Assembly (NCBI GenBank): GCA_943353165.1
Contig: CALRAM010000001.1
Span: forward strand, 1-45,482
Source of the DNA: an uncultured Candidatus Saccharimonas sp.
GTDB lineage: Bacteria; Patescibacteriota; Saccharimonadia; Saccharimonadales; OMJO01
Direction: 5' to 3'
Length of the DNA: 45,482 bases
Position 1 is the first letter of the stretch. The number at the start of each line of letters is the position of its first letter. Position numbers and translations under genes: made by a program. Under the pieces are notes generated by a model. The model was not told the origin of the DNA. It searched no databases and worked only from the letters and a program-made list of their open reading frames with translations. Below are positions 8,696 to 17,897 of the stretch, in pieces.

Positions 8696-9025
8696 ATGAA
8701 AGAAAATATTGCCACAATTTGGGAATCTAAAACCGCCCAGCAGTTATCTAAGACTTTGGTTGGTATTGATGATGCCCAAACTATGGAGAAGTTCCTTAGA
8801 GACGTTATGACTGAAAAAGAAATAATTGAGGTTAGTTCCCGTCTGGAAGCAGCTCGCATGCTCAAGGCAGGTATCAAATACAGCGACATAATTGAAAAGA
8901 CAAAACTTAGTAGTCGAACAGTTGCCCGTATTAGTGATTGGATGCAAAACGGTAGCGGTGGCTACGAAGCAGTTCTGGGTCAAATTAGTGACCATAGCCA
9001 TATATCGCCAGCCAGTGCTGACTAA
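8696..9025 (+). CDS. TrpR/YerC/YecD-family transcriptional regulator
   Basis: FLRDVMTEKEIIEVSSRLEAARMLKAGIKYSDIIEKTKLSSRTVARISDWMQNGSGGY. Confidence 0.85.
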   Translation: MKENIATIWESKTAQQLSKTLVGIDDAQTMEKFLRDVMTEKEIIEVSSRLEAARMLKAGIKYSDIIEKTKLSSRTVARISDWMQNGSGGYEAVLGQISDHSHISPASAD

Positions 9026-9051
9026 CTAGTTATTCGTTTGAAATAGCAGAT

Positions 9052-9077
9052 CGCCAGCACATCGCTGGCGTTTTTTT
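9052..9077 (+). terminator. Rho-independent terminator
   Basis: cgccagc-acat-cgctggcg followed by ttttttt. Confidence 0.85.
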
Positions 9078-9107
9078 GCGCGATATTAATTTGAAAGGAG
9101 AAATACG

Positions 9108-9476
9108 ATGAATATTAGAAAATTTGAATTTGAAGCTGTAGATTTTACAAAACTACTGTCGGCCACGGGAGAACAATTAGTTCCAGCCGTGGTAGTTGAT
9201 AGTGCTGAAATGGCAACTGATGGCCTGGCCTCAGTTCTAATGGTTGGTTTTATGAACCGACTAGCCCTAGAAGCTACTATCGACAGCGGTAATGTCACTT
9301 TTTACTCCCGCACCAGCCAAGCGCTGTGGGAAAAGGGAACAACTAGTGGCAACTATCTAAAAGTGAGAAATATTTTTACAGATTGTGATAATGACAGTCT
9401 ATTAATCGATGCGGAACCCTTGGGACCGACGTGTTGCCAAGGTACGCAGTCATGCTTTGAGGAGGAAATACAATGA
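9108..9476 (+). CDS. hisI: Phosphoribosyl-AMP cyclohydrolase
   Basis: [55 protein letters not shown] (DxDxD metal motif). Confidence 0.9.
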
Positions 9477-10144
9477 GTAATTTCGAAAAGGTATTGTTGG
9501 AGTCGGCCGATACAATTTATTTGCCGAACAGATACCTAGAACCCTTTATGGATGCGGTTGGCAATATAACAAATATTGAGATACCTGACCTGAAAGAGAG
9601 AAAACTTAGCGTTAAATCCAATGGTCAGACATTTCGCTGGGTACGTGGACGAGATGTGGCTAAGATTGTTGCTAGTGTCCAAGCAGCTCAACCAGAGAAA
9701 AGAGTCGTTGGCCTAAGCGGTAGCGAATGGTGCGATGAATACATGTTGGGCGAGTTGACTGGTCGGGTAACTGCAGATCGAAGGATAGAGTACTACAACA
9801 TACCGAGCGCCAAACTTATGGGGCGAGTTGCCATCATCGCTCCACCTAGCCTAGACGCTGATCAAATGCGAGACAAGATTAGGCCTGGGCGGGAACAGCT
9901 TGTTCCTGTGGTTACTGTCTATCCAAACCTGGCTACAGCATCCAAATCCAACCTTTCTATAACAACTAGCCTGGAGTTTACTCTTAATGGCAGTGTGGAA
10001 ACGGTATCAGATGATCTAGGTATGTTAGCTTTAGATTTAGTCTGCACAGGTGGTACCGTTATACAAAATAACTTTACCATACTAGCAGAATTGCAAGAGG
10101 TATATCCGGCTATTGTAGTGGCGGCTGGCACTAATACTGTTTAG
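9473..10144 (+). CDS. HisG-like ATP phosphoribosyltransferase (divergent)
   Basis: [55 protein letters not shown] resemble the HisG PRPP-binding region; overlaps hisI by 4 nt. Confidence 0.65.
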
Positions 10145-10662
10145 GATTTTTGGATTTTGCCGCAGGCTAGGCGGGGGCCACCGCTGTGGCCAGAACCAGT
10201 TTCGCCCGGTGTGTGTGGATCTTCGTTAGCATGCACCATGATTGAAGTGCCTTCTGCTGGCTGTAAAATGGAAACTGGACCGTCAGACAGTGTTATGCGA
10301 GTGGAAATGGTTTCTAGTTCGCCGTGTCCTTTTGCGTCTATGACTATGTTTGGCAAATCGCCAGCGTGGTAGCCGTGGTTGGCATCTGGGTCGGTATTGC
10401 CGCTAGGGCCTGGGTCAAAGTGCCCGCCAGCACATTTGAAGCCTTCGCATTCGCAGTCTCCCTTTTCGTGTATATGAACAGCGTGTCGTCCTGGAATCAG
10501 AGTGGCGGGGTCGCCTTTTAGGGTCAATCGCAAGTGTACATATTTCCAGCCATCAACATCGTATTCTGTAAAAATGGCCAGTCCAGACACATTTGGGCCA
10601 GAAACTTCCGCCCTAGCTAGATTGGTGACTTTTTTGCTATCTGCATTTAGGCTAACTTTCAT
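10141..10662 (-). CDS. Cu/Zn superoxide dismutase family protein
   Basis: HAVHIHEKGDC, GGHFDP, NHGYHAGDLPNI, IMVHANEDPHTP, GGPRLACG. Confidence 0.9.
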   Translation of the reverse strand: MKVSLNADSKKVTNLARAEVSGPNVSGLAIFTEYDVDGWKYVHLRLTLKGDPATLIPGRHAVHIHEKGDCECEGFKCAGGHFDPGPSGNTDPDANHGYHAGDLPNIVIDAKGHGELETISTRITLSDGPVSILQPAEGTSIMVHANEDPHTPGETGSGHSGGPRLACGKIQKS

Positions 10663-12825: not shown

Positions 12826-13071
12826 ATGGATCCAAATACAACAACCCCAACAGACCCAGTAGCACCAGCTTATCCTGCTGCAGACCCAGTAGCACCAGCT
12901 TATCCTGCTGCAGACCCAGTAGCACCTGCTGCAGACCCAACGGTAGCACCAGCCTATCCTGCAGTTGACCCAGTAGCACCAGCTACTGATCCAGCAGATG
13001 CTCCTGCACCAGAAGAAGCACCAGCGCCTGAAGTAGCACCAGCTACCGACCCAGCTGAACCAGCAATGTAA
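12826..13071 (+). CDS. Low-complexity DPVAPAYPA-repeat protein
   Basis: 81 aa with AAAGGAG RBS and a downstream terminator; Pro/Ala/Asp repeats. Confidence 0.75.
   Translation: MDPNTTTPTDPVAPAYPAADPVAPAYPAADPVAPAADPTVAPAYPAVDPVAPATDPADAPAPEEAPAPEVAPATDPAEPAM
12853..12933 (+). repeat. In-frame 30-bp tandem repeat
   Basis: gacccagtagcaccagcttatcctgctgca repeated twice exactly, then a shortened third unit. Confidence 0.9.
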
Positions 13072-13097
13072 TATATTTTGTTGGACGGAGTACAGAA

Positions 13098-13125
13098 GGT
13101 CAGCCTATCGTGGCTGACCTTTTTT
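13098..13125 (+). terminator. Rho-independent terminator
   Basis: aaggtcagcc-tatcgt-ggctgacctttttt. Confidence 0.85.
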
Positions 13126-13161
13126 GTTTTATAGGTAAAGCGTTTATGTTATTATCAGCGT

Positions 13162-13929
13162 ATGACTAAATCTATAAAACTATCAAAACTACGCAAATTC
13201 AATCTAAAAATGGCTGCCTTGCATGCAGTTCAGGGGGCAGCGGTTCTAATTTTGGCAAACAATTTTAGTCTACCGATAACTACTAACTATCTATCTTTTG
13301 ATAAAGCGACAGAAAAGCTTACTTCCGCCCAGCAAAACCTGTTTACTATTAGGTTTGCCTGGCTCATAGCTGCATTCCTATTTGTTTCTGCCATTGCTCA
13401 CCTGACTATAGCAACTGTCTACAATAAAAATTACAACAGCAATTTGGAAAAAGGCCTAAACAAAGCCAGGTGGTTTGAGTATTCTATTTCTGCATCTATC
13501 ATGATGGTGGCCATCGCAATGTTGTCTGGTATTTATGACATTTCAAGTTTATTGATGATATTTGGTCTAGTAGCTATCATGAATTTGATGGGTCTAGTCA
13601 TGGAAGTACACAATCAGATCACCACCAAAACAAGCTGGCTTAGCTACTATATAGGTTGTTTAGCTGGAATTATTCCATGGGTTGCTATAGGAATCTATTT
13701 TTGGGCTGGAGTAAATAATGGTTCTGCTCCGCCGACTTTTGTCTACGGCATATTTTTTACGCTATTTTTGATGTTCAACAGTTTTGCTATAAATATGATT
13801 CTACAGTACAAAAAAGTTGGAAAGTGGAAGGATTATCTTTACGGAGAGAGAGTTTATATTATTTTGAGTTTGGTTGCAAAGTCATTGTTAGCATGGCAAG
13901 TATTCGGTGGCACTTTACGCCCAAATTGA
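13162..13929 (+). CDS. Heliorhodopsin
   Basis: Seven-TM profile; NLKMAALHAVQGAAVL, RWFEYSISASIMMVAIAMLSGIYD, PWVAIGIYF, LQYKKVGKWKDYLYGERVYIILSLVAKSLLAWQVFGGTLRP (retinal Schiff-base Lys in TM7). Confidence 0.92.
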   Translation: MTKSIKLSKLRKFNLKMAALHAVQGAAVLILANNFSLPITTNYLSFDKATEKLTSAQQNLFTIRFAWLIAAFLFVSAIAHLTIATVYNKNYNSNLEKGLNKARWFEYSISASIMMVAIAMLSGIYDISSLLMIFGLVAIMNLMGLVMEVHNQITTKTSWLSYYIGCLAGIIPWVAIGIYFWAGVNNGSAPPTFVYGIFFTLFLMFNSFAINMILQYKKVGKWKDYLYGERVYIILSLVAKSLLAWQVFGGTLRPN

Positions 13930-13936
13930 ACCAAGT

Positions 13937-14530
13937 ATGAAAAAGATAAGGCAGCAAAAAATATTATTAGCTGTATTGATCTGCGTTGTTTTAATTTTAT
14001 CTTTCTACGTTCATTTTGCTAAATATACGAGCTGGGAATCTAATTTCTTTCAACGTTTCTATGACATGCCCTTGGCCTGGAAAAGTATCATGCAGGTCAT
14101 CACTATGAGTGGCAGCATTTTGATGGTTATGTTGGTCGTAGCAGGCTTATATACAAGACAAAAAATCAAATTAGCGCGATTTGTAACAGTATTAGCTTTG
14201 GCTACTTTTGGCATTACGGAATTGCTAAAGATTCTAGTTGCTAGGCCTAGACCTTTCAATGGTTTAAATGATGTAATTTCTCGCGAAGGAATAGTTGCTG
14301 GAATGGGATATCCTTCGGGGCACACAGCGATAGTAACTGCAATAGGTTTGTCTCTGTCATTTTTATTGCCTAAAAATATTAGGTGGCTAGTATTTGTCTG
14401 GATAGGTTTGGTCGGTATTTCTCGTATGTATCTGGGAGTACATGCTCCATTGGATATTGTTGGCGGTATTTTACTGGGCACAATAGTGTTTCTAATTGCC
14501 AAAATAACTAGGCCTAAATACTTTGCCTAA
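13937..14530 (+). CDS. PAP2 family phosphatase
   Basis: KILVARPRPF, YPSGHTA, SRMYLGVHAPLDIVGG. Confidence 0.92.
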   Translation: MKKIRQQKILLAVLICVVLILSFYVHFAKYTSWESNFFQRFYDMPLAWKSIMQVITMSGSILMVMLVVAGLYTRQKIKLARFVTVLALATFGITELLKILVARPRPFNGLNDVISREGIVAGMGYPSGHTAIVTAIGLSLSFLLPKNIRWLVFVWIGLVGISRMYLGVHAPLDIVGGILLGTIVFLIAKITRPKYFA

Positions 14531-16568: not shown

Positions 16569-17897
16569 CTAGGTTTTTAACAAATCAATCACTAGGGCTG
16601 CGGTCCAGCTGAAATTTTTTGCACCTGCTGCTTCGCCTGTTAAGGGATTGAAATATTCGCTAAAACCAGAACGCTTTACCATTTCTATGGTCGATTCCTT
16701 TAGTGCATTTGCATGATCATGAAATCCATTTCTTTCTAGTCCGTCGATGATTAGCCAGTTCATATTTACCCATGTTGGCCCCTGCCAGTAAAGCGTTGGT
16801 TTGAACCAGCTAGAGTTTACGGGTACTGACGGAATAGGATAACTGGGTCCAAAAAAATGTTCATTTTCTAACATTTTTACTAATTTTTTTGCTCGTTCTT
16901 TGCTGATGGAACCTGCATATAGAGGCATAAGTGTTGCTATACTGGATTCTTTTAGGAGCCTGTGAGTTACGAAATTACGTGAATAATACTGGTTGGTGTA
17001 TGGGTCCCAAAGCTCTTCCAGAGTTGACTGTGTTTTTTTGATATTGTTCAGCAGCTCGTCGGAGAGCTTTGTGTTTATAAAGCTAGCTATATCTATGAGA
17101 TGTTGGTTTGCGCGGATAAATATGGCATTAAAGCTCAAATCTTCTACAGCAAATAGAGAGTGAGCTAAAATATTGTCTATGTCGTAATTCTTTCTGCGCA
17201 AACGTCGCTGGGTGCTGTACAAAACTAACGCATCTATGGCATCTAGGCGTTCAGCAGATGGTATTCTCAGGGTGTCCCTACGAAATATATTAATAAGTGG
17301 CGACATGTGGGCTTTTTCTAGTAGGCTAATCCATAGGGGCAGCGAATGCTCGCGAATTTCATTCATCCAAGGAGGCGTATTGTCTAATCCTGTTTCCCAG
17401 GGGTGAATTTGCAGCACTAGGCCTTCGTTGTGCGGGTCGCGTTCGCGGTAGAGCCATTCGTGGTAAGCCAATAATGCAGGGAACACTGTTTGATACCAAC
17501 TACGACGTTCGGTTTTATTCATGCGGTCGCCTAATTTGACAATAGCTTCGGCTAGTAGAGGCGGTTGCGTGATACCGCTGGTCACCAATTCGTCAGGCGA
17601 GTTTGGGTTTAGCCAACTTTTCCATATACGGTAAGCAGGGCTACGGCGATTTAGGAAAGTATTATCGCCTAGAATCATATTTGGTAACATCCCGTTCGCC
17701 CATTGTCCACGCAATAGGCTGAGTATCTCTGTCTGGGCTCTGTCTAGGTCTGTGTGACGAAGTCCAATAGCTATGAAACAACTATCCCAAAGCCACTGGT
17801 GCGGGTATAGGCCTTCTGCTGGTATGGTAAAGTTTTCTCTGTCATTTTCTTTTAGAACTTTTTGGGCTGCGTCTGCTAAATCGGTAGTTTCTTCCAT
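16569..17897 (-). CDS. MGH1/trehalase-like (alpha/alpha)6 glycoside hydrolase
   Basis: GLYPHQWLWDSCFIAIGLRH, RGQWANGMLPNMIL, YWQGPTWVNMNWLI, EYFNPLTGEAAGAKNFSWTAAL. Confidence 0.85.
   Translation of the reverse strand: MEETTDLADAAQKVLKENDRENFTIPAEGLYPHQWLWDSCFIAIGLRHTDLDRAQTEILSLLRGQWANGMLPNMILGDNTFLNRRSPAYRIWKSWLNPNSPDELVTSGITQPPLLAEAIVKLGDRMNKTERRSWYQTVFPALLAYHEWLYRERDPHNEGLVLQIHPWETGLDNTPPWMNEIREHSLPLWISLLEKAHMSPLINIFRRDTLRIPSAERLDAIDALVLYSTQRRLRRKNYDIDNILAHSLFAVEDLSFNAIFIRANQHLIDIASFINTKLSDELLNNIKKTQSTLEELWDPYTNQYYSRNFVTHRLLKESSIATLMPLYAGSISKERAKKLVKMLENEHFFGPSYPIPSVPVNSSWFKPTLYWQGPTWVNMNWLIIDGLERNGFHDHANALKESTIEMVKRSGFSEYFNPLTGEAAGAKNFSWTAALVIDLLKT

Follow-up and report, generated by a model that had tools for sequence, protein, structure and literature searches.

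A canonical heliorhodopsin and a heliorhodopsin line with repeated loss of the retinal lysine in Saccharimonadia

We found three heliorhodopsin (HeR) genes in the genome of an uncultured Candidatus Saccharimonas sp. HeR1 is located in the window, which is the whole stretch of 45,482 nucleotides that was analyzed (contig 1, bases 1-45482). HeR3 belongs to a line that is bound to one locus and in which the retinal lysine has been lost repeatedly. We estimate a probability of about 0.8 for the joint explanation that HeR1 is a canonical heliorhodopsin with acquired retinal, and that the HeR3 line has lost its lysine repeatedly and works without retinal. The assembly consists of 639,318 bases in five contigs and is 96.5% complete, which agrees with the first-pass annotation of a small-genome bacterium. 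The genome was covered by stretches of its sequence and by family searches.

HeR1 and its surroundings

HeR1 matched the family profile PF18761 over its entire length (positions 1-242 of 242) with 341 bits (cut-off 26.7), and the NCBIfam HeR equivalog NF038020 with 347 bits (cut-off 100). Its best relatives in the Protein Data Bank (PDB) are the solved heliorhodopsins 6IS6 and 7U55 (E 6.7e-81); 48C12 is more remote (E 5.6e-57). The gene had been called a full-length heliorhodopsin from its letters, and these matches bear this out. For HeR1, HeR2, and HeR3 the Pfam search reported only PF18761 and not PF01036, the type-1 rhodopsin family. The motifs RWFEY (with Glu106) and SLVAK (with Ser236 and Lys240) align to Glu107, Ser237, and Lys241 of 48C12. 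This confirms both the TM3 counterion region (WFEY) and the TM7 retinal lysine that had been proposed earlier. Both conserved histidines are present in the alignment (His23 and His80). HeR1 has seven hydrophobic segments, and positive charge is found at the N-terminus and in the TM2-3 and TM6-7 loops. The number of segments and the charge bias of the loops agree with the predicted inverted (N-in) topology. Judged from its sequence, HeR1 is a complete, intact, and canonical heliorhodopsin (Table 1).

Table 1. Features of the HeR1 region and position of HeR3. Positions refer to the window unless another sequence is named.
Feature	Position	Strand	Evidence
HeR1, canonical heliorhodopsin, 255 aa	13162..13929	+	PF18761, NCBIfam HeR, and 6IS6 matches
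Codon of Glu106, at the position of the Schiff-base counterion (Glu107 in 48C12)	13477..13479	+	Alignment
Codon of Lys240, at the position of the retinal Schiff-base lysine (Lys241 in 48C12)	13879..13881	+	Alignment
Lipid phosphatase of the PAP2 family with its likely ATG start; putatively the second gene in a HeR1-PAP2 unit	13937..14530	+	PF01569, E 7e-20
Intrinsic-terminator-like stem-loop, parting HeR1 from the upstream small ORF	13094..13123	+	Consensus scan only
Promoter-like site that ends just ahead of the HeR1 start codon, TTTATA-16-TATTAT with TG preceding the second hexamer	13128..13155	+	Consensus scan only
HeR3 (own genome, contig 1, 258.5 kb)	L005:9528-10373	-	PF18761, 129 bits

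TaHeR (6IS6, Thermoplasmatales) and 48C12 (6SU3) share with HeR1 the full-length family match, the Glu/Ser/Lys set, both histidines, and the sequence SLVAKS in TM7. They differ from it in organism and operon, as HeR1 has a PAP2 gene downstream. By itself, HeR1 is an ordinary member of the family, and heliorhodopsins of Saccharibacteria have already been published. One survey reported 80 of them in Saccharimonadia, with SLVAK among the commonest motifs (PMC9166423). These come from the same bacterial class as HeR1. Unlike that set, our genome has three copies, and the lysine-less proteins described below fall outside a collection that was checked for the motif.

The PAP2 protein has the undecaprenyl-diphosphatase SepP as its best NCBIfam match, at 57 bits and below the cut-off of 250. 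According to the first-pass annotation, HeR1 overlaps the 5' end of this gene. This is true of the reading frame as annotated, which needs a GTG start at 13907, and we regard the overlap as a start-codon artefact; the likely ATG start leaves a gap of 7 bases after the HeR1 stop codon. A PAP2 gene is also located 10 nt downstream of a HeR gene in L087 and L097 (two genomes of another family). Since these share the gene order, it is plausible that HeR1 and PAP2 form one bicistronic unit. The adjacency was found in three genomes only.

The promoter-like site comes from a consensus scan in which 17 sites were found and 8.7 were expected by chance. Directly upstream of HeR1 is an ORF of 81 aa (12826-13071, + strand), which is Pro/Ala-rich with AYPAADPVAP-like repeats, has a terminator-like stem-loop of its own, and gave no Pfam match. 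No RNA elements were found near HeR1, and the sole RNA match in the window is a tRNA elsewhere. A ZIP transporter was considered as a partner of HeR1 and rejected; it forms a separate unit past an intergenic inverted repeat, with no conserved linkage among the compared loci.

Other genes in the window deserve mention. Consecutive genes at 8696-10144 (+ strand) encode a TrpR-related YerC/YecD protein, a HisI-like phosphoribosyl-AMP cyclohydrolase, and a protein with weak similarity to HisG, an odd set for a bacterium in which one would not expect histidine synthesis. A Cu/Zn superoxide dismutase family protein (PF00080) is encoded at 10141-10662 (- strand) in this Saccharibacteria genome. The product of 16569-17897 (- strand) is a glycoside hydrolase resembling glucosylglycerate hydrolase, with a score of 287 bits that does not reach the equivalog cut-off (550).

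Gene content and retinal supply

There is at least one HeR match in 100 of the 392 genomes of the class; three copies are present only in our genome and in G267. HeR2 is on contig 1 at 111.6 kb (271 bits). At L004:9185-10357 its gene is arranged divergently to one for a small potassium-channel-like protein (Ion_trans_2, PF07885), and an Ion_trans_2 neighbor also occurs at the HeR2 relatives in L046, L049, L050, and L051.

A search with PF01036 found no type-1 rhodopsin in our genome; as a control, the same model gave seven matches over the cut-off in the 392 class genomes. No blh/BCD gene was found in our genome, and 384 Saccharimonadia likewise gave no match over the cut-off, using a model that had no positive control. 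No phytoene synthase was recognizable in our genome by a search that was positive in seven control genomes. Because BCD/blh and phytoene synthase are absent, de novo retinal synthesis appears unlikely, and the pattern of absent genes would fit retinal scavenging. The first-pass annotation had seen no blh in the window and had suggested that retinal may be scavenged; the absence now extends to the whole genome. Uptake of retinal from hosts has been proposed for the type-1 rhodopsins of Saccharibacteria (SacR; PMC9296517). As in our genome, retinal synthesis genes are lacking there and scavenging was put forward. However, SacR are proton pumps, and it is type-1 rhodopsins that are missing here. 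Photolyase and glutamine synthetase are both absent from our genome (controls positive), which makes these two published HeR partner mechanisms unlikely in it.

The heliorhodopsin line of the msrA-rsmE-serS locus

HeR3 is found in the gene order proS, greA, lysS, ABC transporter, msrA, HeR3, rsmE, PD-(D/E)XK protein, serS, hpf, and secA (msrA, rsmE, and PD-(D/E)XK were named from Pfam, the remaining neighbors from their sequences). As called, the HeR3 reading frame overlaps msrA; an ATG at L005:10304 would give a gap of about 38 bases instead. The HeR3-type genes of other genomes (around 40) are all in the same slot, and in many genomes msrA immediately precedes the HeR3 gene.

We compared 43 HeRs from this slot with 60 HeRs from elsewhere in the class. 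Glu107 and Lys241 (48C12 numbering) are both kept in all 60 proteins from outside the locus, and also in all complete HeRs examined from outside Saccharimonadia. At the locus, only 17 of the 43 are canonical in this sense and 26 are altered. The retinal lysine is missing in 16 locus HeRs, where it is replaced by R, A, S, V, Q, L, E, or I. In the other 10 the lysine is kept but Glu107 is changed to Asp or a neutral residue. No displaced TM7 lysine that could replace Lys241 was found in the lysine-less locus HeRs; the few lysines of this segment are at the cytoplasmic start of TM7. HeR3 itself has Asp at position 107 and Lys at position 241, and in the alignment its sister-genus orthologue has Asp and Arg. 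HeR3 may still be a photoreceptor with its lysine and an Asp counterion, because the lysine is kept and an Asp mutant of TaHeR was crystallized as a heliorhodopsin (PDB ID: 7CLJ). The PF18761 cut-off is passed by 25 of the 26 altered members; the exception (G016) is a marginal match at 20.8 bits and calls for caution. No other HeR match is present in 21 of the 26 genomes with an altered locus copy. Type-1 rhodopsins over the cut-off are absent from all 26; this absence is not significant (P 0.11). When a profile of the locus line was used to look for more divergent HeRs, practically no full-length genes were added to the set.

The altered genes are full-length open frames in their 26 genomes. 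In pairs of lysine-less genes the third codon position is the most variable (0.54/0.37/0.67 in L077/L080, both with Gln), and these genes are under purifying selection. Conserved RW, G, and D residues remain in the lysine-less locus HeRs. The lysine-less orthologue in G001, a genome of the same family as ours, was modeled with AlphaFold2 (L144; pLDDT 79.8 from an alignment of seven sequences). The model superposed on 6IS6 with Z 29.8 and an rmsd of 2.2 over 248 residues; among type-1 rhodopsins the highest Z was 21.4. The TM1-TM2 hairpin is kept in the model (strands 37-47 and 58-69). The heliorhodopsin fold is therefore predicted to be retained in the lysine-less line, of which this one member was modeled. 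The lysine-less locus proteins are heliorhodopsin homologues by descent and fold, and not retinal rhodopsins. Lysine-less type-1 rhodopsins (Rh-noK; freshwater FArhodopsins) are already known (PMC10308929). They are likewise paralogues that are retained without the retinal lysine, which Q, T, L, or R replaces in that report. Unlike the locus HeRs they are type-1 proteins at other loci (flotillin), and the L144 model is nearer to heliorhodopsins than to type-1 rhodopsins.

The N-terminal tails of the locus HeRs have a median length of 27 residues in canonical and 53 in altered members, against 10 elsewhere. Their mean net charge is +10.5 (canonical) and +12.1 (altered), against +2.6 elsewhere. 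Lys/Ala/Thr-rich tails of 64 to 127 residues occur in L104, L105, L106, L110, L112, L114, L064, L067, and L072, among both canonical and altered copies.

A phylogenetic tree was built without the trait columns. A 100/99 branch separates all locus copies from the whole remainder of the HeRs, among them TaHeR and 48C12. Because this branch parts the two sets, the best reading is that the canonical and lysine-less copies of the slot are one lineage, separate and vertically inherited. The lysine has changed at least nine times on the tree. A single clade of all lysine-less sequences was rejected (p 4e-27), and a single loss of Glu107 was not (p 0.24). One copy (G040, Gly/Val) is nested at 100/100 among the canonical copies of its own family, f8, and is a clear recent loss. 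The picture is one in which the counterion was lost first, at least once, and the lysine then eroded repeatedly, with HeR3 of our genome midway. The deep order within the divergent clade is uncertain because of long branches.

Proposed function and its alternatives

We propose that HeR1 is an inverted seven-helix protein that would bind retinal as a Schiff base on Lys240 and change its shape upon light. The retinal would have to come from neighbors or from a host. HeR1 and the PAP2 lipid phosphatase are probably produced together, and the likeliest role of HeR1 would be the light-dependent modulation of a membrane partner. PAP2 is the best candidate for this partner, although we find this specific assignment doubtful. 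The HeR3 line retained its protein through one or more losses of the counterion and many losses of the retinal lysine. Since the lysine was lost while the protein was kept under purifying selection, the selected function of the lysine-less members should be retinal-independent. Our leading candidate for this locus is that the scaffold acts constitutively in the membrane, for example by scrambling lipids. A paper that makes no mention of heliorhodopsins describes phospholipid scrambling by type-1 and animal opsins that requires neither light nor retinal (PMC12805836). By analogy, the locus HeRs perhaps scramble lipids as well, which would suit a cell unable to make retinal. We hold only tentatively the wider idea that the lineage of the fixed slot gave up retinal and light in many species and has a conserved task in the membrane that needs no light, which would be a basal role of the scaffold and also operate in apo-HeR1.

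All three HeRs could instead be light sensors against photo-oxidative stress, with HeR3 signaling via the methionine sulfoxide reductase (msrA) of its operon and the lysine-less copies being local losses in dark habitats. The position of msrA directly before HeR3 in many genomes would agree with this, as would the 17 fully canonical locus copies and the link between HeRs and oxidative-stress protection in monoderms (PMC8612252, as given in PMC9166423). We nevertheless consider it rather unlikely, given that the photochemical residues are altered in more than half of the locus copies, mostly in genomes with no other HeR match and in none with a type-1 rhodopsin over the cut-off. Purifying selection on lysine-less genes also implies that something besides light sensing is selected. 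It is unlikely, too, that HeR1 and the other HeRs are mainly retinal-independent phospholipid scramblases for single-membrane growth, with light secondary and PAP2 as a companion in the lipid cycle. The scrambling by opsins, the lack of retinal synthesis in our genome, the adjoining lipid phosphatase, and a sibling line that lost the lysine and kept the fold all point this way. However, the opsin study is silent on heliorhodopsins, and the strict conservation of Lys and Glu outside the locus shows the importance of retinal chemistry in genes of the HeR1 type.

The long and basic tails, together with neighbors that work in translation and secretion (rsmE, serS, hpf, and secA), could also describe a tether facing the cytoplasm, whose Lys/Ala/Thr-rich N-terminus binds ribosomes or nucleic acid. 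We judge this improbable: HeR3 of our genome and the G001 orthologue have short tails, small genomes can conserve gene order without functional coupling, and basic tails may merely fix the topology. That the lysine-less genes are decaying remnants, uninformative on function, is highly improbable. Their fast branches and lost photochemical residues could be read as decay, but the full-length frames are open and nearly all pass the Pfam cut-off, the third-position bias is strong, and the RW, G, and D residues and the fold are retained.

We thus prefer the reading in which HeR1 uses acquired retinal and the HeR3 line works without it. No report of lysine-less heliorhodopsins was found in the literature covered (open-license PMC papers). 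One survey kept only sequences with the TM7 lysine (PMC9601134) and another checked the retinal-binding motif (PMC9166423), which would explain this gap; surveys that demand the lysine miss a part of the family. The value of HeR1 itself is modest, as a well-supported case of scavenging with PAP2 as a candidate partner. The function of heliorhodopsins is still debated. Orthologues in one slot, canonical or lysine-less depending on the species, are a natural experiment, in which a shared function cannot need retinal. The repeated loss of the lysine in the HeR3 line suggests that heliorhodopsins also do a job that is free of light.
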